Source: Planctomycetaceae bacterium
Lineage (GTDB): Bacteria > Planctomycetota > Planctomycetia > Planctomycetales > Planctomycetaceae
DNA length: 64,000 bases
Reading direction: 5' to 3'
NCBI GenBank assembly: GCA_021732785.1
Contig: JAKFUG010000017.1
Span: forward strand, 177,352 to 241,351
Each line of letters begins with the position of its first letter. Position 1 is the stretch's first letter. This document shows positions 37,881 through 47,127 of the stretch, piece after piece. The position numbers and the translations under genes were made by a program. The notes beneath the pieces are model-generated. The model was not told where the DNA came from. It ran no database searches and saw only the letters and a list, made by a program, of their open reading frames with translations.

Positions 37881-39431
37881 TTACTGCGGCCACTCGGCGA
37901 CGATGCCTTTGATTTTCTTGCCGATCTCCCACACCTGCCCGGCGACTTGCGAGAACTTGCCCTGGTCGATGGTGCGGCGCAGTTCCCGTAAGAGAGCGGC
38001 CGAGCGGGCGTGATCGAGATGCTCGGCCATCGCGGGGACAAGATCGGTGCCGATGCCGAACACGCGGTCATGCTCCCCATCGCAGCACGTCGGAATCACG
38101 GCCTTGATTTTCGAGCCGAACACTTCGCGAACATAGGCGATGGCCCCGGCGATGTTCTTTTCCTTGGGACGGACCGGCGTTTTCCAGTCGTACGGCGGTG
38201 CCCATTCCATCACCGGGCTGAGGCCATCAATCTTGTTGAGTACCGCAATCAACGGCGGCGGTTTCAATTGGGGATGGGCCGTGTACCAAGCGGCCAACCC
38301 GGCGAGTGTTTTCACATCGGCGTCGCGCGACGGGGACCGGGCGTCGAGCACCAGCAGCACGAGGTCCGATTGCTGCACGGCTTCGCGCGTTTCGGCTTGC
38401 TGTTCCGGTGTCGCCCCGGCATCGCTGTAACCGGTCGTGTCCAGTAGCACGAACTGGTCGCCGTGGCCGGGTGGCGAATACGCATAGCGATGCACTTTTT
38501 TCGTCGCCGGTAAGACATCGGTCACCGCCGCGCCGCGACCGACCAGCGCGTTGATCAAACTCGACTTGCCCGCCTTGACCTGTCCGATGAGTGCCATTGT
38601 AATTTTGACCGGCGCTTCGATCGGTTCCACATCAGCGGGCCCGACACCGGGCGGCATCAACGGTGTCGGCGTCTGCACCTGCTTCATCCAGCGGCGATAG
38701 CGTTCCGATCCTCCCTGTAACCTGCCGCTGTTGAGTTCAATCAGGTAATAGCCCGCCTGTCGGATGTACGCGGTGTAAAACAGCCCCAACAGATTCTGCT
38801 GCACCTGCCCGCTGAGGGGATCCACCGCGAGTTTCGAGGCAAAGAAGCGGCCGAGATTCAACGGGTTCATGAAAATGGACGCCACCCAGCCCGCATTGCT
38901 GGCCGCTTGCCACCACCCCGGTGCGTGCGACAACAACTTCCAGTGCGACACCGTCACGAGGTGGCCGCCGGGGACGTAGCGCAGAAACCAGTCTTCGACA
39001 TCCGCCGAGATGAGTTGCACCGCCGCGAGAATCTCCACAACCGTGCGTTTCCCCAGCGGATCGTTCGCCTTGGGGTGATAGTGCTGGGCGATTTTCAGCG
39101 CGAGTTCTTGCGTGACCTGAGTGTAGAACTGCGGGTCGGAAAGTTGCTCTTTGGTGTACTCGGCCACACGGCCCTGCTCGGCTTCCACAATTGCCGTCGC
39201 GGCCTGATCCTGCGGCGTCCAATGCGTGCGATCGAGCGGGGCCTGCGGAAGATCTACCCGACCGCCCCAGCGTCGCCACAGCAGCGACGCTGCCCCCCAG
39301 CACACCGGCATCGTCCACCAGAGCCAGAACCACTGTCCCGACTGGTACAAGCTCCAGCCCCCGAACCCCGCCAGTAACACCATCGGCAACAGCGAGAGAA
39401 TCGAGAGCGTCATCAACTGCCAGCGTGACAT
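37881..39431 (-). CDS. Membrane-anchored GTPase of unknown role
   Basis: The product is 516 aa. Two hydrophobic segments stand at the N-terminus (about 7-24 and 34-52). A helical region of about 200 residues with a YLI-rich centre follows, then a Ras-like G domain: GQVKAGKSS (P-loop, 283-291), DTTGYSD (331-337) and NKID (399-402). The G3 motif has T-T-G rather than the common x-x-G, which is seen in dynamin-, septin- and YcjX-like groups. No neighbour suggests a pathway. Membrane attachment and a long N-terminal domain suggest work at the inner membrane, perhaps in remodelling, but this is inference. Confidence 0.8.
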   Translation of the reverse strand: MSRWQLMTLSILSLLPMVLLAGFGGWSLYQSGQWFWLWWTMPVCWGAASLLWRRWGGRVDLPQAPLDRTHWTPQDQAATAIVEAEQGRVAEYTKEQLSDPQFYTQVTQELALKIAQHYHPKANDPLGKRTVVEILAAVQLISADVEDWFLRYVPGGHLVTVSHWKLLSHAPGWWQAASNAGWVASIFMNPLNLGRFFASKLAVDPLSGQVQQNLLGLFYTAYIRQAGYYLIELNSGRLQGGSERYRRWMKQVQTPTPLMPPGVGPADVEPIEAPVKITMALIGQVKAGKSSLINALVGRGAAVTDVLPATKKVHRYAYSPPGHGDQFVLLDTTGYSDAGATPEQQAETREAVQQSDLVLLVLDARSPSRDADVKTLAGLAAWYTAHPQLKPPPLIAVLNKIDGLSPVMEWAPPYDWKTPVRPKEKNIAGAIAYVREVFGSKIKAVIPTCCDGEHDRVFGIGTDLVPAMAEHLDHARSAALLRELRRTIDQGKFSQVAGQVWEIGKKIKGIVAEWPQ

Positions 39432-39775: not shown

Positions 39776-42031
39776 TCAACGATCGGCGAGTGGGGCCGAG
39801 GGTGTGATCAGGCCCGTGTCGAGCAACGATTTCACGAACTCGCGGGCGATGGGACCGGCGACTTTGCCGCCGCTGCCGCCGTGTTCGATGACCACGGCGA
39901 ACGCCACGCGCGGGTTATCGGCGGGGGCATAACCGGCGAACCACGCATGATCGGGCCGATTGCCGCCGACTTCCGCGGTCCCGGTTTTCCCGGCGATCGC
40001 GACGTCTTTCAACCGCACCGTCTTGTAACCGGTGCCGTGCGAATCGTTCACGACGTTGTACAACCCTTCCCGAATCGCGGCGAGTGTGGCCGGATGCAAG
40101 CCGGGGATCGGTTGCGGTTCGGGATGGGCAAACACCGGACGAACGGGCGTGCTGCCGTCGGTTTCAATGCTCGTCGGACCAGACGTGGTGGCCAGATGCG
40201 GCGTGACGAGAAATCCGCCGTTCGCGATCGCCGCCATCAATCGCGCCATCTGCAACGGCGTGACTTTCAACGACGATTGTCCGATCGCCAGTCCGAGCGT
40301 GTCGCCCGGATACCATCGCGGACCGGCTTCCCCCGGACGTGACGGCGAGGGCAACGCCCCGCCGGTTTCCCCCGCGAGGTCCAGTCCCGTGGGTTGACCG
40401 ATTCCCAACCGCTGCGACCAATCGACGAGCGCTTGCGGACCGGCACGACGGGCACCCGTGAAGAAGTAGACGTTGCATGATCGCGAGAGCGCGGCGGATA
40501 AATCGGTTTCACCGTGACCGACACCGTAGTGTCGGAAAACAAGACACCGATGCTGTCCGGGATGGTCGAGATAACCCTGACATGGAATGTGATCGTGCGG
40601 TTGAAACACACCGGTTTCCAACAGGGCGATCGCCGTCAGCGCTTTGAAGACCGAACCCGGCGGCAATGCCATTTGCGTGACCCGCGGGTAGAGCGGCTTG
40701 CGAGGATCGGCGATGAGTTTTTTCCATACCGCATCGTTTGGATTCACGAGCAGATTCGCATCGTAGCGGGGGGCACACGCCGCGGTAAGGAGCGCCCCCG
40801 TCTGCACATCGATCGCAATCAGGCACCCTCCGGGCGGCGGGGCGCTCGGCGCATTCACGGGTGCGGCTTCATCGTCGGTCACCGCGGGGGGAGGCGTAAC
40901 GAGGGCCGCATCCAGCAGAGCTTCCGCCTTTTGTTGCAGGGGAAGATCGAGCGTTAATACGAGATCGTGGCCGTGCTCCGCCGGACGTTCGATGTGAGAC
41001 GCGAGTTCTTCGCCGTGCCGATCGTAGGTGATGCGTCGTTCGCCGCGCGTGCCGTGCAGGACCGATTCATATTGCCGTTCGAGCCCGCTGCGACCGTAGG
41101 GATCGCCGGGACGGTAATCGTCCGGCAAGGGGGCGATGTGCTGTTCGGCGGTCGGATCCAATTCTTCCGGTCGCAACGGCGTGCGACTGCCGAGAATGTG
41201 CGGCGCGACCGTCTTCAGCGGATAGACCCGCCGCGGCCGGATGGCGATCGTCACGCCGGGGTAACGGTCGGGATGGGCTTCCACTTCATGTGCGATTTCG
41301 CGTGACACATTGGTCAACAGGACGTGTGTCGTTTCCTGCTCGGCAATGACGAGGGGTTCGTGCCGATTGCGGACCGGCGGGGCGGTGAGTTCGTGCTGCA
41401 CGCGGTGCCAGATCGCTTCCCACCAGGCCGTTTCTTGAGTGGATTCGACGGGAGTGGCGACGGTGGCCAATTCCGCGGTGCGTCGTCGTTCATCGACACT
41501 CGCCCAGATCGTTTCGATGCGGGCCTGGATCGCTCGCGCGGTCTGTCGCAATTCGGGTTCGGCATGTCCAGTGAGGCGTTGCAGTTCGCGCCACCACGCC
41601 TGGCGTTCCTGTCGCAGCAGACTTTCCTGAGCGGCGACGCGGGCCGACTGACGGCGTTCGCTGCGATTGAGCCGTTCCCATGCCTTGCGTCGCAGCCACC
41701 GCGGATCGGGTGGTTCTTCCATTCGACGGTAATGGACGAGCAGATCATACTGCAACACGTCATCGGCGAGAACCGTACCGTCCGCGGCGAGCAATCGGCC
41801 TTCGCGCGCGGGGAGTTCGACGAGTTCCGTGTGCGTTCGCGAGAAGACTTCCGTGAACGCTGGTTGCAGCCGGCATTGCAGATCGGCGATCCGCACGGCG
41901 ATCGCGATGAGCGGCACAATGAACAACGCCGCGAGCACTATCAGCCGATGAGCAGGCGTAGCATCCCAGTCCCACGCCGCGGAAGAGGTGGGTGGCTGCG
42001 ATAACCCGTCAATGGACGGCCGGTTCAACAT
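39776..42031 (-). CDS. mrdA: Class B penicillin-binding protein (PBP2-type transpeptidase)
   Basis: The product is 751 aa. It cross-links peptidoglycan outside the inner membrane. One membrane anchor lies at about 29-47. The dimerisation region carries an inserted Arg/Gln-rich helical stretch (about 105-220), making it longer than the usual 600-650 aa. Catalytic motifs are intact: SVFK (Ser460-Lys463), SCN (518-520) and KTGT in IAGKTGTAEVG. It is the last gene of the mre operon, but a 321-bp gap holding a composite repeat separates it from mreD. Its intact active site implies that this planctomycete makes peptidoglycan. Confidence 0.93.
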   Translation of the reverse strand: MLNRPSIDGLSQPPTSSAAWDWDATPAHRLIVLAALFIVPLIAIAVRIADLQCRLQPAFTEVFSRTHTELVELPAREGRLLAADGTVLADDVLQYDLLVHYRRMEEPPDPRWLRRKAWERLNRSERRQSARVAAQESLLRQERQAWWRELQRLTGHAEPELRQTARAIQARIETIWASVDERRRTAELATVATPVESTQETAWWEAIWHRVQHELTAPPVRNRHEPLVIAEQETTHVLLTNVSREIAHEVEAHPDRYPGVTIAIRPRRVYPLKTVAPHILGSRTPLRPEELDPTAEQHIAPLPDDYRPGDPYGRSGLERQYESVLHGTRGERRITYDRHGEELASHIERPAEHGHDLVLTLDLPLQQKAEALLDAALVTPPPAVTDDEAAPVNAPSAPPPGGCLIAIDVQTGALLTAACAPRYDANLLVNPNDAVWKKLIADPRKPLYPRVTQMALPPGSVFKALTAIALLETGVFQPHDHIPCQGYLDHPGQHRCLVFRHYGVGHGETDLSAALSRSCNVYFFTGARRAGPQALVDWSQRLGIGQPTGLDLAGETGGALPSPSRPGEAGPRWYPGDTLGLAIGQSSLKVTPLQMARLMAAIANGGFLVTPHLATTSGPTSIETDGSTPVRPVFAHPEPQPIPGLHPATLAAIREGLYNVVNDSHGTGYKTVRLKDVAIAGKTGTAEVGGNRPDHAWFAGYAPADNPRVAFAVVIEHGGSGGKVAGPIAREFVKSLLDTGLITPSAPLADR

Positions 42032-42352: not shown

Positions 42353-42901
42353 TCACTCCGACAACATTTTCCAGCGATTCGAGAGCGGCATTGGTTCTCG
42401 TGACAATGCTGGTGCGAGCAAGCGTTGCGTGATGGCGGACAGCATCGCACACACCGTGGCCGCTAAGGCGGTCGTACATCCCCGCACAAATGCCGTTCGT
42501 AGGATCGAGTTGAAATCCACGGCACCGGCTCCATCGAACTGCAATAGGAGCGACTGTGCGACGGGATGGATCGCGGCGAGTGCGAAAGCCACGGCGGGGG
42601 CGAACCACCACGTTCGTCGCTCCATCGGAACCAAGGCGACGAATCCACTGGCGAGCAAGCCGTACACCATGAGGAACGGGCCGATGGGTCCCCGTGAGGT
42701 GGCATCGATGACGAATCCCCCCGCGGCTGCGCAGAAGACACCGGTCGACGATCCGCTGACGGACACCGCCAGCGTCACCGCCAGCGCAATCCATGACGGC
42801 GTGAAGTCACCCAAGGGCCACGAGAGTTCCATCACCGTTGCAGCATACAGCACGGCGAACAATCCCGCGGTGCGCGTTCCGAAGCGAAGCCATTCCATCA
42901 T
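42353..42901 (-). CDS. mreD: Rod shape-determining protein MreD
   Basis: The product is 182 aa, typical for MreD. It is almost wholly hydrophobic with about five membrane spans (residues 10-28, 38-60, 72-92, 98-118, 135-155). MreD proteins share little sequence; the call rests on topology, length and position right after mreC (8 bp apart, GAGGA within the mreC end). In the elongasome it joins MreC and the RodA-PBP2 pair at the membrane. No rodA is present in the window. Confidence 0.85.
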   Translation of the reverse strand: MMEWLRFGTRTAGLFAVLYAATVMELSWPLGDFTPSWIALAVTLAVSVSGSSTGVFCAAAGGFVIDATSRGPIGPFLMVYGLLASGFVALVPMERRTWWFAPAVAFALAAIHPVAQSLLLQFDGAGAVDFNSILRTAFVRGCTTALAATVCAMLSAITQRLLAPALSREPMPLSNRWKMLSE

Positions 42902-42909
42902 TCATGTCC

Positions 42910-43860
42910 TCAGTTCGTCCACAACCGCGCGGGGTTCAAAGCGGCGCGTAACACCTGCACGGTTCCCAGCGTGGTGGGTGTGGGAGCGGGGCGGATGGTG
43001 ATGGTCCATTCGCGACCATCGGAGTCGAGTTCGGCGTGAGTCACCGTGCCATACGTCAGTGGTGCGGAGAGGATGCCGTCCCGTTCGGCGGTGTAGACGA
43101 GGTCGCCAATCCGCACGGTTTCTTCCGCCGGGATTCCTTCCAGCACGCAGCCGTCACCTGTGCCGCGAATTAACCCCTGCGCACCCCACGCAGGACCATC
43201 CTCGGTCTGCCTGATGAGCTGCGCCCGGCCGCGAAAATCGCTGTCGGTCAGCGGAATGAACGTGCTCGTCCACTGCCCGACGTCTTCAATTTTTCCCAGC
43301 ACCGTTCGACCCGTGAGGAGCGTATCTTCCGGCGAGAGTTGTTGTGGCTGTCCGATGTCGATCAGTGGGCGACGGCTGGAGAGGACCAGTGCCGATTCCC
43401 GCAGGCCGCTCTTCCATCCGCGATCCAGCACCCGGCCTTCCCGCCACGACTTCGAAAGCGTTTCGGCCAGAATCGCGGCATCCACGAGCGCCGGCGTGAA
43501 CAACCGCGCGGTCGCTTCATCATCGGTGCTGGCAATCCGTACCGCTGCGGTTTCATTGGCATCGGCGAGTTGAGCGGTCAAGCGCTGCAGGCGTTCCTCG
43601 TGTTGGGCCGTGAGATGTTCCAGGCGTTTGAGTTGTGTCTGCAGGCTCGCCACATGGGCGTCTTGCCGGGCTTTGGACCATTCCGCCCCGCGTTGTTGTG
43701 CCGTTGTGGAAACCATCAGCCCGGGACGAAGTGCATCCATGGTGATGGTCCGAATTCGCGTCACGGCCGATGCAGGAGCGAACCACAGCGCGAGCCCGAT
43801 CAGCACCACCCAGAAGGCAGCGACGGTCGGCGATTCTCGCATGGGGGTCGGTCGAGGCAT
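42910..43860 (-). CDS. mreC: Rod shape-determining protein MreC
   Basis: The product is 316 aa. One membrane span at about 13-32 is followed by a coiled coil (about 58-105, heptad-like Leu/Gln-rich, LQTQLKRLEHLTAQHEERLQ) and a beta-rich periplasmic domain with VLGKIEDVGQWTSTFIPLTDSDFRGRAQL, the strand pattern of MreC where the second beta-barrel starts. It bridges the cytoplasmic filament and PBP2. Between it and mreB lies a small CCCCTCTCCCCC hairpin that may trim the transcript. Confidence 0.88.
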   Translation of the reverse strand: MPRPTPMRESPTVAAFWVVLIGLALWFAPASAVTRIRTITMDALRPGLMVSTTAQQRGAEWSKARQDAHVASLQTQLKRLEHLTAQHEERLQRLTAQLADANETAAVRIASTDDEATARLFTPALVDAAILAETLSKSWREGRVLDRGWKSGLRESALVLSSRRPLIDIGQPQQLSPEDTLLTGRTVLGKIEDVGQWTSTFIPLTDSDFRGRAQLIRQTEDGPAWGAQGLIRGTGDGCVLEGIPAEETVRIGDLVYTAERDGILSAPLTYGTVTHAELDSDGREWTITIRPAPTPTTLGTVQVLRAALNPARLWTN

Positions 43861-43982: not shown

Positions 43983-45029
43983 TCACGCGGCGATATCGCT
44001 TTCGAAACTGTCCCGCCAACGATCGAGGTGTTCGGTGCAGATCATCGCACCGCGGATGACGGTCCGTTGAGGATCGCTCGAAACTCGGACGGGAATTCCT
44101 AATCGTTCCTGAAAGAGCACATCGAGTCCCGGCAGCATGGCCCCGCCACCACAGAGCACGATGCCGGTATCCGCGAGATCGGCGATGAGTTCCGACGGAC
44201 ATTGTTCAATGACGGTTTGAATCCCGCGCAGCATGACTTCGAGCGGTTCGGATAACGCCGCGCGAACTTCTTCGCTCGTCATGATCGCTTTCCGTGGGAC
44301 ACCGCTGACGAGATCCAACCCGCGGACTTCGGCCGTCAGTTCGTGATCGCGCGGGGCCGCACAACCGACTTGCAGCTTCAATTGTTCCGCGGTCTGGATG
44401 CCGATCCGCAGGGCCATGCGACGGCGGACATATTCCACGATGGCCTCATCGAGTTCATCGCCGCCAAGGCGGAATGACCGGGCGGCGACAATCTGCCCGA
44501 GACTCAGCACCGCGATTTCCGTTGTGCCGCCGCCGATGGAACACACCATGCTCGCCAGCGGTTCGGCTATCGGCAGCCCGGCCCCAATCGCCGCGGCTTT
44601 GGTCTTCGGCAACAAGAAGATCCGCCCGGCTCCGGCCCGTTCGGCGCTATTGAGCAACGCTCGCCGTTCCACCGGGGTGATGCTGCCGGGGACGGGCATG
44701 ACGATGCGCGGTCGCATGCCCGGTGATGAGGGGCGACATTTGCGCAGAAAGTAGCGGAGCATCGCCTCGCAGAGTTCGAAATCGGTGATCACGCCGTCCT
44801 GAATGGGGCGGACAGCCGTGATGGCATCGGGGGTGCGACCGAGCATTTGCCGGGCAAGCTTGCCGACGGCAGTTCCCTGACCGAGGATTCGTCGGCTTCC
44901 TTTCTGAAGCGCGACGACGGAGGGTTCGTCCAAAACGACACCCTGTCCCGGCAGCCCCACCAAGGTGTTGGCGGTGCCCAGGTCCATGGCGATGTCGGGA
45001 CAAAACCAGTGTCTCAGCCGGTGAAACAT
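43983..45029 (-). CDS. mreB: MreB-like actin homologue with altered nucleotide site
   Basis: The product is 348 aa, normal for MreB. The fold is clear: MDLGTANTLVGLPGQGVVLDEPSVVAL (phosphate 1), SIGGGTTEIAVLSLG (phosphate 2), LCGGGAMLPGLD (adenosine). Two changes stand out. Where MreB normally has ...IEEPMAAAIG, this protein has LLPKTKAAAIG (residues 139-149), so the Glu-Glu including the ATPase Glu is Pro-Lys. Where the family has V-D-I-G-G-G-T, this has C-S-I-G-G-G-T (Ser164 for Asp). ATP hydrolysis is therefore doubtful. It leads mreC, mreD and mrdA on the same strand. Confidence 0.92.
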   Translation of the reverse strand: MFHRLRHWFCPDIAMDLGTANTLVGLPGQGVVLDEPSVVALQKGSRRILGQGTAVGKLARQMLGRTPDAITAVRPIQDGVITDFELCEAMLRYFLRKCRPSSPGMRPRIVMPVPGSITPVERRALLNSAERAGAGRIFLLPKTKAAAIGAGLPIAEPLASMVCSIGGGTTEIAVLSLGQIVAARSFRLGGDELDEAIVEYVRRRMALRIGIQTAEQLKLQVGCAAPRDHELTAEVRGLDLVSGVPRKAIMTSEEVRAALSEPLEVMLRGIQTVIEQCPSELIADLADTGIVLCGGGAMLPGLDVLFQERLGIPVRVSSDPQRTVIRGAMICTEHLDRWRDSFESDIAA

Positions 45030-45503: not shown

Positions 45504-46352
45504 TCAGAACCGGGTGGTGACGTGATCGTCCTTCTGAATCGTGCTGTTCGGGGCCGTTTCAATCACCACCGCGACGGAAACATCCGGTCGAACGTCTTCG
45601 AGGCGGACGCGACCGAGGTACTTATCGCCGCGGTAGACGGTCAGGGTGTGACCAACAACCAGGCCGTCATCGCTCCCCACGCTGATTTCCACGAAGACAC
45701 GGTTCCCCTTGGTTTCTTTCCGCGCTTCGAGCACTTCACCATCCAATTCCGGCGGGGGTGACGCCGAAACGGTCATCCGCCGGATATCGGTCGGCAGGTT
45801 GTTCGAGGCGAGGAATGCCCGCATCGTGGCGTTATCACGGAGCATCTGGTCGTACTTCGTCTTCGCCTGTGCGAGTTGCAGTTCAATCCCGAAGAGCTTG
45901 TCCCGCAAGACGTTCAGGTCTGTGACGGTGTCGTCGCGGGATTTGTTCAATTCGACATTGCGGGCCCGTTGAATCTGGGCTTCCTTGACCCGTTCTTCGG
46001 CTTCCTGGCTGTTCAGTTCGGCGACCGTCCGCTGGGTGTCGAAGTTGGTTTTGAGCCCCTTGTTGTCACTGTCGAGGCGGGCGTTGTCGGCGGTTAGCGC
46101 GGCGACCTGGCCTTGCAGGGCGGTATTCGTGTTCTTGACTTCGTCCCGTTCCTTCACGGCGTCGTCAATTTGCGATTGCAGCGCGGTTTGCGCGGCCTGA
46201 GCCGCGGAGGCCGCTGCTTTCAATTTGTCGTTGGCCCCGATGTAGGCCTTTTGATAGTTCGTCTGTGCGGTGAAGACGGCCCCGGCGAAGGCCATAAACA
46301 TGACGCTCAACACCAGGTGGACCACCACCAGCACTTTGCCGAGAAACGTCAT
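45504..46352 (-). CDS. Membrane coiled-coil protein with C-terminal beta domain
   Basis: The product is 282 aa. An N-terminal membrane helix (about 6-28) is followed by a long coiled coil (about 38-185, Ala/Gln/Leu heptads) and a C-terminal compact domain: VFVEISVGSDDGLVVGHTLTVYRGDKYLGRVRLEDVRPDVSVAVV. That last pattern (G-S-x-x-G-L-x-x-G, Y-R-G, Y-L-G-x-V) is the beta-barrel signature also seen in MreC-like and related envelope proteins. AAGGGA precedes the ATG. The layout (TM, coiled coil, beta domain) copies that of MreC, so it may be a second scaffold for the elongasome. No name is known to me. Confidence 0.75.
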   Translation of the reverse strand: MTFLGKVLVVVHLVLSVMFMAFAGAVFTAQTNYQKAYIGANDKLKAAASAAQAAQTALQSQIDDAVKERDEVKNTNTALQGQVAALTADNARLDSDNKGLKTNFDTQRTVAELNSQEAEERVKEAQIQRARNVELNKSRDDTVTDLNVLRDKLFGIELQLAQAKTKYDQMLRDNATMRAFLASNNLPTDIRRMTVSASPPPELDGEVLEARKETKGNRVFVEISVGSDDGLVVGHTLTVYRGDKYLGRVRLEDVRPDVSVAVVIETAPNSTIQKDDHVTTRF

Positions 46353-46419: not shown

Positions 46420-47127
46420 TCACTGAACGTCCGACCGCCCCTCGACCGCGACTTCACCGGCACCGAGTTGCCGCTTCAATTGCTGCTGCCGGGCATTCAA
46501 ACGCTGTTGGCTTTCTTTCAGTTGCAACAGCTCGTCCTGCAACGCATCGCGCTGGCGCAGCGATGCAAACAAGTCGTCCCGCAACAATTCCAGTTGGGTT
46601 TGCAACCGGAAGACTTCAAACCGGCGTTCTTCAAACTGCTTTTGGACAGCCGTTAAATCGACGCCCTTTTGAGCCAGGCTTTCGGTGGCCGTTGCCACTT
46701 CGGCGGCCAATTTCTTCAATTGTTCATCATACGCCGTAGCGCGGGCTTTGATGCCGACATGATCGGCGGCAATCGTCTGATTGGCCAGATCCCGCGCCGC
46801 GGTCTCGGCTAAAATCTTTTCCTTGAGATCGGTGAGTTCATCCCGCAGATCCTTGAGTACGCGATCCTGAGCTTTAAGGATCACGGCGGCCAGCAGCGGA
46901 TCGGTCCCAATCGAAGTGTTTGAACGCGTGTGAGTGACCGTCCAGCTTCCCTTCGGGACGTCGGGCGCTTTGAAGGTGACCTGGCGTCCGTATTCCCCGG
47001 TGTTCTGCATCTGGTCCGCCAATGCCGACCAGTTAGGACCACCCAGAATCAATGCACCCACGAAGGCAAAATAGGCCAGGCTTGCCGCGGCAACGAAAAC
47101 CACCAGGACTTTGCTGAAGCGAGTCAT
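46420..47127 (-). CDS. Membrane coiled-coil protein
   Basis: The product is 235 aa. One membrane segment (about 6-29) is followed by a short beta-like stretch (GEYGRQVTFKAPDVPKGSWTV) and then a coiled coil from about residue 85 to 220 (many Leu, Gln, Lys, Glu; ends in QLKRQLGAGEV). It lies 67 bp upstream of the similar 282-aa protein, so the pair probably forms one unit. They are not close homologues by eye but share the plan. It is likely the first gene of the mre operon. Function is unknown; envelope scaffolding is the natural guess. Confidence 0.7.
   Translation of the reverse strand: MTRFSKVLVVFVAAASLAYFAFVGALILGGPNWSALADQMQNTGEYGRQVTFKAPDVPKGSWTVTHTRSNTSIGTDPLLAAVILKAQDRVLKDLRDELTDLKEKILAETAARDLANQTIAADHVGIKARATAYDEQLKKLAAEVATATESLAQKGVDLTAVQKQFEERRFEVFRLQTQLELLRDDLFASLRQRDALQDELLQLKESQQRLNARQQQLKRQLGAGEVAVEGRSDVQ

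Follow-up and report, generated by a model that had tools for sequence, protein, structure and literature searches.

Replaced active-site residues in the sole MreB of a Planctomycetaceae bacterium, one case of a recurrent trend in the family

The mreB locus and the active site of its product

The window, i.e., the whole analyzed stretch of 64,000 nucleotides from a Planctomycetaceae bacterium, carries mreB in an ordinary mreB-mreC-mreD-pbp2 operon, all on the minus strand with the other genes downstream of mreB (Table 1). The preliminary description of this DNA had given the coordinates of the mreB reading frame correctly; its strand is minus. It had also called the partners MreC, MreD and PBP2 intact, which holds for MreC and PBP2, while MreD yielded only a weak match below the cut-off. 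Of the 87 family loci examined, some of which end too early to show these genes, 78 have an mreC homologue downstream of mreB in the same orientation and 63 have a pbp2 homologue in its vicinity.

Table 1. Features of the mreB locus, in window positions.
Feature	Position	Strand	Basis
mreB, sole MreB of the genome, 348 aa	43983..45029	minus	PF06723, TIGR00904, AlphaFold model
Lys142 codon AAG, catalytic Glu position (Caulobacter Glu140)	44604..44606	minus	alignment
Lys144 codon	44598..44600	minus	
Ser164 codon TCC, phosphate-2 Asp position (Caulobacter Asp162)	44538..44540	minus	alignment
Cys163 codon	44541..44543	minus	
Thr169-Thr170-Glu171, retained Thr-X-Glu pair (Caulobacter Thr167/Glu169)	44517..44525	minus	alignment
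mreC	42910..43860	minus	PF04085, 65.5 bits
mreD (divergent)	42353..42901	minus	TIGR03426, 29 bits, under cut-off 34.85; operon position
pbp2, class B penicillin-binding protein	39776..42031	minus	PF00905 and PF03717; SVFK, SCN and KTGT intact
Upstream short ORF	45504..46352	minus	
Upstream short ORF	46420..47127	minus	
GTPase after pbp2	37881..39431	minus	MMR_HSR1, dynamin-like P-loop

Read by eye, the two short ORFs upstream of mreB seem to encode a membrane segment at the N-terminus and a coiled coil after it; no Pfam family scored over its cut-off for them, and homologues adjoin mreB in 10–11 of the 87 family loci. For the GTPase gene that follows pbp2, no homologue was found near mreB in other family loci. 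A search of the genome for a RodZ-type HTH_25 domain gave nothing above the curated cut-off and one sub-threshold match, in agreement with the reported lack of RodZ in planctomycetes (PMC5147048).

The genome is 99.6% complete and contains five matches to PF06723, i.e., mreB and four Hsp70-family proteins. Thus, a second canonical MreB elsewhere in the genome, which had been named as a possible refutation, was rejected: this profile search found no second MreB. No FtsZ was found in the genome, which encodes two FtsW/RodA proteins.

The window protein is an MreB orthologue by profile, fold and operon. It scored 391 bits with PF06723 (cut-off 27), 378 with TIGR00904 (cut-off 365.75) and 388 with NF010539 (cut-off 293). 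The AlphaFold model, built from 53 family sequences, reached a pLDDT of 90.3 and a pTM of 0.88, and its top 25 PDB matches were all MreB or Mbl, including AMPPNP-bound Caulobacter MreB; the Spiroplasma MreB5 and MreB3 structures came next. The model contains no nucleotide and is silent on ATP binding. An N-terminal helix was predicted at residues 2–9 (local pLDDT 63), and the sequence MFHRLRHWF fits a membrane-binding amphipathic helix.

The active-site stretches of the window MreB are FLLPKTKAAAIG and MVCSIGGGTTEIAV. In the alignment to Caulobacter MreB, which has no gaps across the active site, the canonical motif FLIEEPMAAAIG pairs with FLLPKTKAAAIG; residues were numbered by what we take to be the Caulobacter sequence, which agrees with the PDB alignment. 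Lys142 stands at the position of Glu140 and Pro141 at that of Asp139, i.e., the acidic neighbor of the catalytic Glu is also gone, and Thr143 and Lys144 correspond to Caulobacter Pro141 and Met142 (PKTK; codons CCG AAG ACC AAA). The loss of the Glu had been noticed earlier in a motif comparison whose register was off by one residue, and the replacement of the phosphate-2 Asp by Ser164 was borne out. A Glu shifted to a neighboring position was rejected, since residues 131–155 contain no Glu and the alignment is ungapped.

The rest of the site is largely in place. In Caulobacter numbering, Asp16, Thr19, Asn21, the three glycines 164–166, Thr167, Glu169, Asp189, Asp192, Glu213 and Lys216 are kept, and the adenosine pocket is retained. 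Among the features of a canonical ATP-hydrolysing MreB, the catalytic Glu and the phosphate-2 Asp are missing, while Asp16 and the Thr-X-[D/E] pair (Thr169 and Glu171) are present. The Thr-X-Glu pair is the proposed proton-abstraction pair. Judged by its sequence, the protein is not a canonical ATP-hydrolysing MreB.

A sequencing error was rejected because an independent genome of the same genus (G002) encodes the same PKTK and Ser, with its mreB (L022/L035) 84% identical to that of the window in DNA and 95% in protein. The MreB of a third genome of the genus (L023/L036) has Asp at position 140 and retains Asp162. In addition, all 137 family MreBs compared have Cys immediately ahead of the phosphate-2 residue, where 27 of 30 other Planctomycetota MreBs have Val, and most family MreBs carry Lys or Arg at the Caulobacter Met142 position (Lys144 in the window). 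These two marks predate the residue losses and could have made them tolerable.

Recurrence in the family and selection on the gene

An mreB gene was present in 156 of 170 family genomes and in 125 of the 130 good ones. The sample used for comparison comprised 140 distinct MreBs, two of which, L029 and L030, each represent another family of the class. Glu140 was absent in 45 and Asp162 in 18 of them. Position 140 was occupied by Glu (95), Lys (21), Asp (9), Ser (4) or Gln (3), and in the remaining eight sequences by Ala, Val, Arg, Leu, His or Thr; at position 162, 122 sequences had Asp and the other 18 had Glu, Asn, Ser, His, Gln or Thr. Thr167 was kept in 135 and Glu or Asp at position 169 in 138 of the 140.

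On an MreB tree built without columns 140 and 162, at least eight changes at position 140 and at least seven at position 162 were required, the exact number of losses being uncertain given long branches (L026–L030, L149 and L150) and many open forks. Placing all MreBs without the Glu in one clade was rejected by the AU test (p-AU 2e-49), and with it a single ancestral loss. The alignment proposed earlier to reveal a clade feature thus uncovered a recurrent trend, not a single loss. The window MreB is one case of this family-wide trend, which arose in several separate lineages. Joint loss at both positions gave a raw Fisher p of 0.003; too few pairs were available for a kinship-aware test, and a correlation is not claimed.

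For comparison, 58 MreBs of other Planctomycetota were used, comprising 30 best-scoring outgroup sequences and 28 low-scoring ones from other classes (L263–L290). Asp162 was kept in all 58. Both residues were kept in the 30 best-scoring sequences, which are biased towards canonical sites because they were chosen as top scorers. Glu140 was missing in 13 of the 28 low-scoring ones, replaced by Gln in 11, by Lys in one (L285) and by Arg in one (L290, in which the phosphate-2 loop is also disrupted). Gln at this position is the actin residue. Since these 13 lack the Glu, the change at position 140 is not confined to the family, and its exclusivity was rejected; among the sequences sampled, the change at position 162 occurred only in the family and its close neighbors in the class.

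In most other families of the class (sample G025–G039), matches to the MreB profile lay only in the Hsp70 range, and MreB seems to have been lost there. The exceptions, L029 and L030, are very divergent MreBs in which both residues are missing. Within the family, one MreB match (L155 in G050) was flagged with an internal TGA, i.e., as a possible pseudogene, frameshift or assembly error.

Selection on the gene was strong in lineages with and without the residues. Omega was 0.03–0.06 in clades that had lost them, with values of 0.05 for the window genus and 0.03 for Planctopirus, versus 0.02–0.04 in clades that had kept them. Between the window mreB (L001) and L022, which share both changes, 145 of 171 nucleotide differences fell on third positions, with a dN of 0.030 and a dS of 0.96. 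At similar dS, dN was 0.18 for mreC, 0.27 for mreD and 0.10 for pbp2, so that mreB was the slowest gene of the operon. A pseudogene or decaying gene was disfavored by omega, third-position bias and operon comparison alike.

The changes were also localized. With the functions of positions assigned from the Caulobacter literature (PMC3137890, PMC4051119), 17 of the 91 columns invariant in keepers and outgroup were released in losers, and those released around the gamma-phosphate include 140, 165, 163, 324, 123 and 19. The adenosine pocket, Asp16, Thr167, Glu213, Lys216, Gly294/295 and the double-filament helix residues Val118 and Glu119 were kept. By this pattern, the catalytic pocket seems to have been eroded in a targeted way, and the gene as a whole does not seem to be decaying. 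The losers are, however, somewhat more divergent overall (72 versus 103 columns conserved at 97%), and therefore part of the signal may reflect general relaxation.

A putative scaffold with reduced ATP hydrolysis and its alternatives

The repeated loss of the two residues with retention of the rest suggests a shape filament independent of ATP turnover. Residue changes, sole copy, family recurrence, purifying selection, predicted MreB fold and conserved operon were computed or observed; from these we infer reduced ATPase activity, retained ATP binding and polymerization, and a scaffold role. It appears probable, with room for considerable doubt, that the window protein acts as an MreB scaffold that binds ATP, is attached to the membrane and hydrolyses ATP at a strongly reduced rate, filament turnover having become dispensable in a lineage without FtsZ. 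Such a protein would fold, bind ATP and attach to the membrane as other MreBs do, and it would hydrolyse ATP far more slowly because the water-positioning residue (Glu140 to Lys) and a Mg-site residue (Asp162 to Ser) are gone. Reduced turnover would be tolerated since budding cells without FtsZ would no longer need dynamic elongation; with the demand for filament turnover relaxed, the gamma-phosphate/Mg site could therefore have eroded repeatedly, while fold, adenosine pocket, double-filament helix and operon partners would stay under strong selection. Only tentatively do we go further and propose that the family repeatedly turned its sole MreB into a pseudo-ATPase, i.e., an ATP-bound, non-cycling, membrane-anchored actin scaffold that still serves cell-wall synthesis by MreC/PBP2 during FtsZ-less budding.

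Laboratory mutants bear on how far hydrolysis may be reduced. In S. citri MreB5, an ATPase rate of 0.15 per min was lowered to 0.01 in the Glu mutant and to 0.08 in the Asp mutant (PMC9195046). The non-hydrolysing polymer suggested initially goes beyond what the sequence shows, and a weakly hydrolysing scaffold has the best support: Thr169-X-Glu171 is intact and may allow residual hydrolysis, and a change of the Asp by itself leaves MreB5 with roughly half of its ATPase activity. Nor would stable filaments be a necessary consequence; with the Glu mutated, MreB5 continues to form filaments, but bundling and liposome binding are weaker (PMC9195046). SpeMreB3, in which the catalytic motif is replaced, assembles into filaments and releases Pi at a barely measurable rate (PMC9597168), and Caulobacter strains with E140A/G or D162G are viable and grow (PMC3137890). 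On the other side, membrane binding of Geobacillus MreB requires a hydrolysable nucleotide (PMC10718530), so that an MreB without hydrolysis could be impaired in its function instead of working in a simpler way.

The main alternative is that hydrolysis persists in a rearranged site, with Thr169-X-Glu171 activating the water and other residues replacing Glu and Asp, perhaps with slow cycling. This would fit the near-constant Thr167 and Glu/Asp169 of the family, the actin-like Gln at position 140 of several other Planctomycetota MreBs and the activity left in S. citri MreB5 D156A (PMC9195046), as well as SpeMreB3, in which restoring the Thr and Asp pair alone, without a Glu at 140, increased Pi release to 1.2 nM/s at 3 µM (PMC9597168). 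It nevertheless appears unlikely, as Glu to Lys flips the charge beside the gamma-phosphate, the window genus also lacks the acidic neighbor (PK), and the residues that replace the Glu in relatives (K, D, S, Q, A, V, R, L, H, T) vary too much in their chemistry to look like one new catalytic solution. An artefact from a wrong alignment, an error in sequencing or another canonical MreB in the genome has a negligible chance of explaining the data given the same replacements in an independent genome, the ungapped alignment and the Hsp70 nature of the other four profile matches; nothing was found in its favor.

We regard it as improbable that mreB is a relic heading for loss, with MreB dispensable and its active site simply decaying. 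A deletion without laboratory phenotype in P. limnophila (PMC6952346), the lack of full-length MreB in most other families of the class and the greater overall divergence of the losers would agree with a relic; the low omega of loser clades, the third-position share between L001 and L022, the slow evolution of mreB within its operon and its retention in nearly all good family genomes argue against it. Natural A22-like inhibitors could likewise have selected changes in the pocket, the loss of hydrolysis being a by-product of resistance. The loser-variable positions 21, 110, 140, 162, 165 and 324 do overlap A22-resistance positions of Caulobacter (PMC3137890), and the A22 analogue MP265 contacts Glu140 there (PMC4051119). 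Such overlap is, however, expected for any change at the gamma-phosphate site, no inhibitor source is known, and relaxed constraint explains recurrence across many habitats more simply, which makes this explanation improbable as well.

The debate on whether MreB requires ATP hydrolysis has drawn mostly on laboratory mutants, and we know of no biochemistry for any planctomycete MreB. The repeated natural loss of the two residues with the rest kept provides a set of mutants made by evolution, which can be set against close relatives still carrying the residues, e.g., Gimesia L071, L075 and L077. If the pseudo-ATPase scaffold were true, actin-family turnover would be dispensable for a wall-associated function of MreB in nature.

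Comparison with Planctopirus limnophila and other known systems

The MreB of genome G111 (L145/L254) has 348 aa and is 47% identical to what we presume to be the E. coli MreB sequence, with mreC 73 bases downstream. These values match the description of P. limnophila D5SQI2 (348 aa, 47%, 74 nt; PMC6952346), so the identification of the two is strong, if not formal. At positions 140, 162 and 165 it carries Ser, Asn and Ala, respectively. A described planctomycete thus has an MreB of this kind, whereas the preliminary description knew of none. In the openly available literature that was searched, no account of these residues in a planctomycete MreB was found. The full catalytic motif is present in 95.8% of 4832 non-Spiroplasma MreBs (PMC9597168), and natural exceptions are therefore already known in number.

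P. limnophila, a laboratory model, belongs to the same family, and its MreB has the same two positions replaced, with mreC and mreD downstream as in the window; it differs by Ser140/Asn162, by the additional change of Gly165 to Ala and by the lack of a pbp2 found beside mreB. Deleting its mreB had no effect on growth or shape under laboratory conditions (PMC6952346), and rodA and pbp2 are dispensable in this species as well (PMC10632474). Wild type and deletion strain responded alike to A22 (PMC6952346, in whose text the word ATPase is absent). Since this MreB lacks the Glu contacted by MP265, poor A22 binding would be expected. The tests showing MreB to be dispensable and unrelated to A22 sensitivity were thus made with an MreB without that Glu, and their outcome need not hold for planctomycetes in which the site is conserved.

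Caulobacter crescentus MreB (PDB 4cze–4czm) is 48% identical to the window MreB over the fold and has the same Thr-X-Glu pair and, bar the changes, the same pocket. Its wild type carries Glu140 and Asp162; the A22-resistant laboratory mutants E140A/G and D162G show changes in shape or localization (PMC3137890). The laboratory equivalents of the two changes in S. citri MreB5, E134A and D156A, each show a measured loss of ATPase (PMC9195046); they are single Ala swaps in an active ATPase, whereas the window MreB carries natural Lys and Ser together.

The nearest precedent is Spiroplasma MreB3. SpeMreB3 of Spiroplasma eriocheiris (PDB 7e1c/7e1g) also has replaced catalytic residues, and the window MreB matches its fold with a TMq of 0.82–0.85. 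The replacements themselves differ. SpeMreB3 has Glu140 to Asp, Thr167 to Lys and Glu169 to Ser; the window MreB has Lys142 and Ser164 with the equivalents of Thr167 and Glu169 intact, and it is not of the MreB3 type (Asp, Lys and Ser/Thr at Caulobacter positions 140, 167 and 169). Moreover, SpeMreB3 comes from a wall-less swimmer that has five MreBs, whereas the window MreB is the sole copy and lies in a cell-wall operon. By analogy, the window MreB may thus resemble Spiroplasma MreB3 in expected behavior only.
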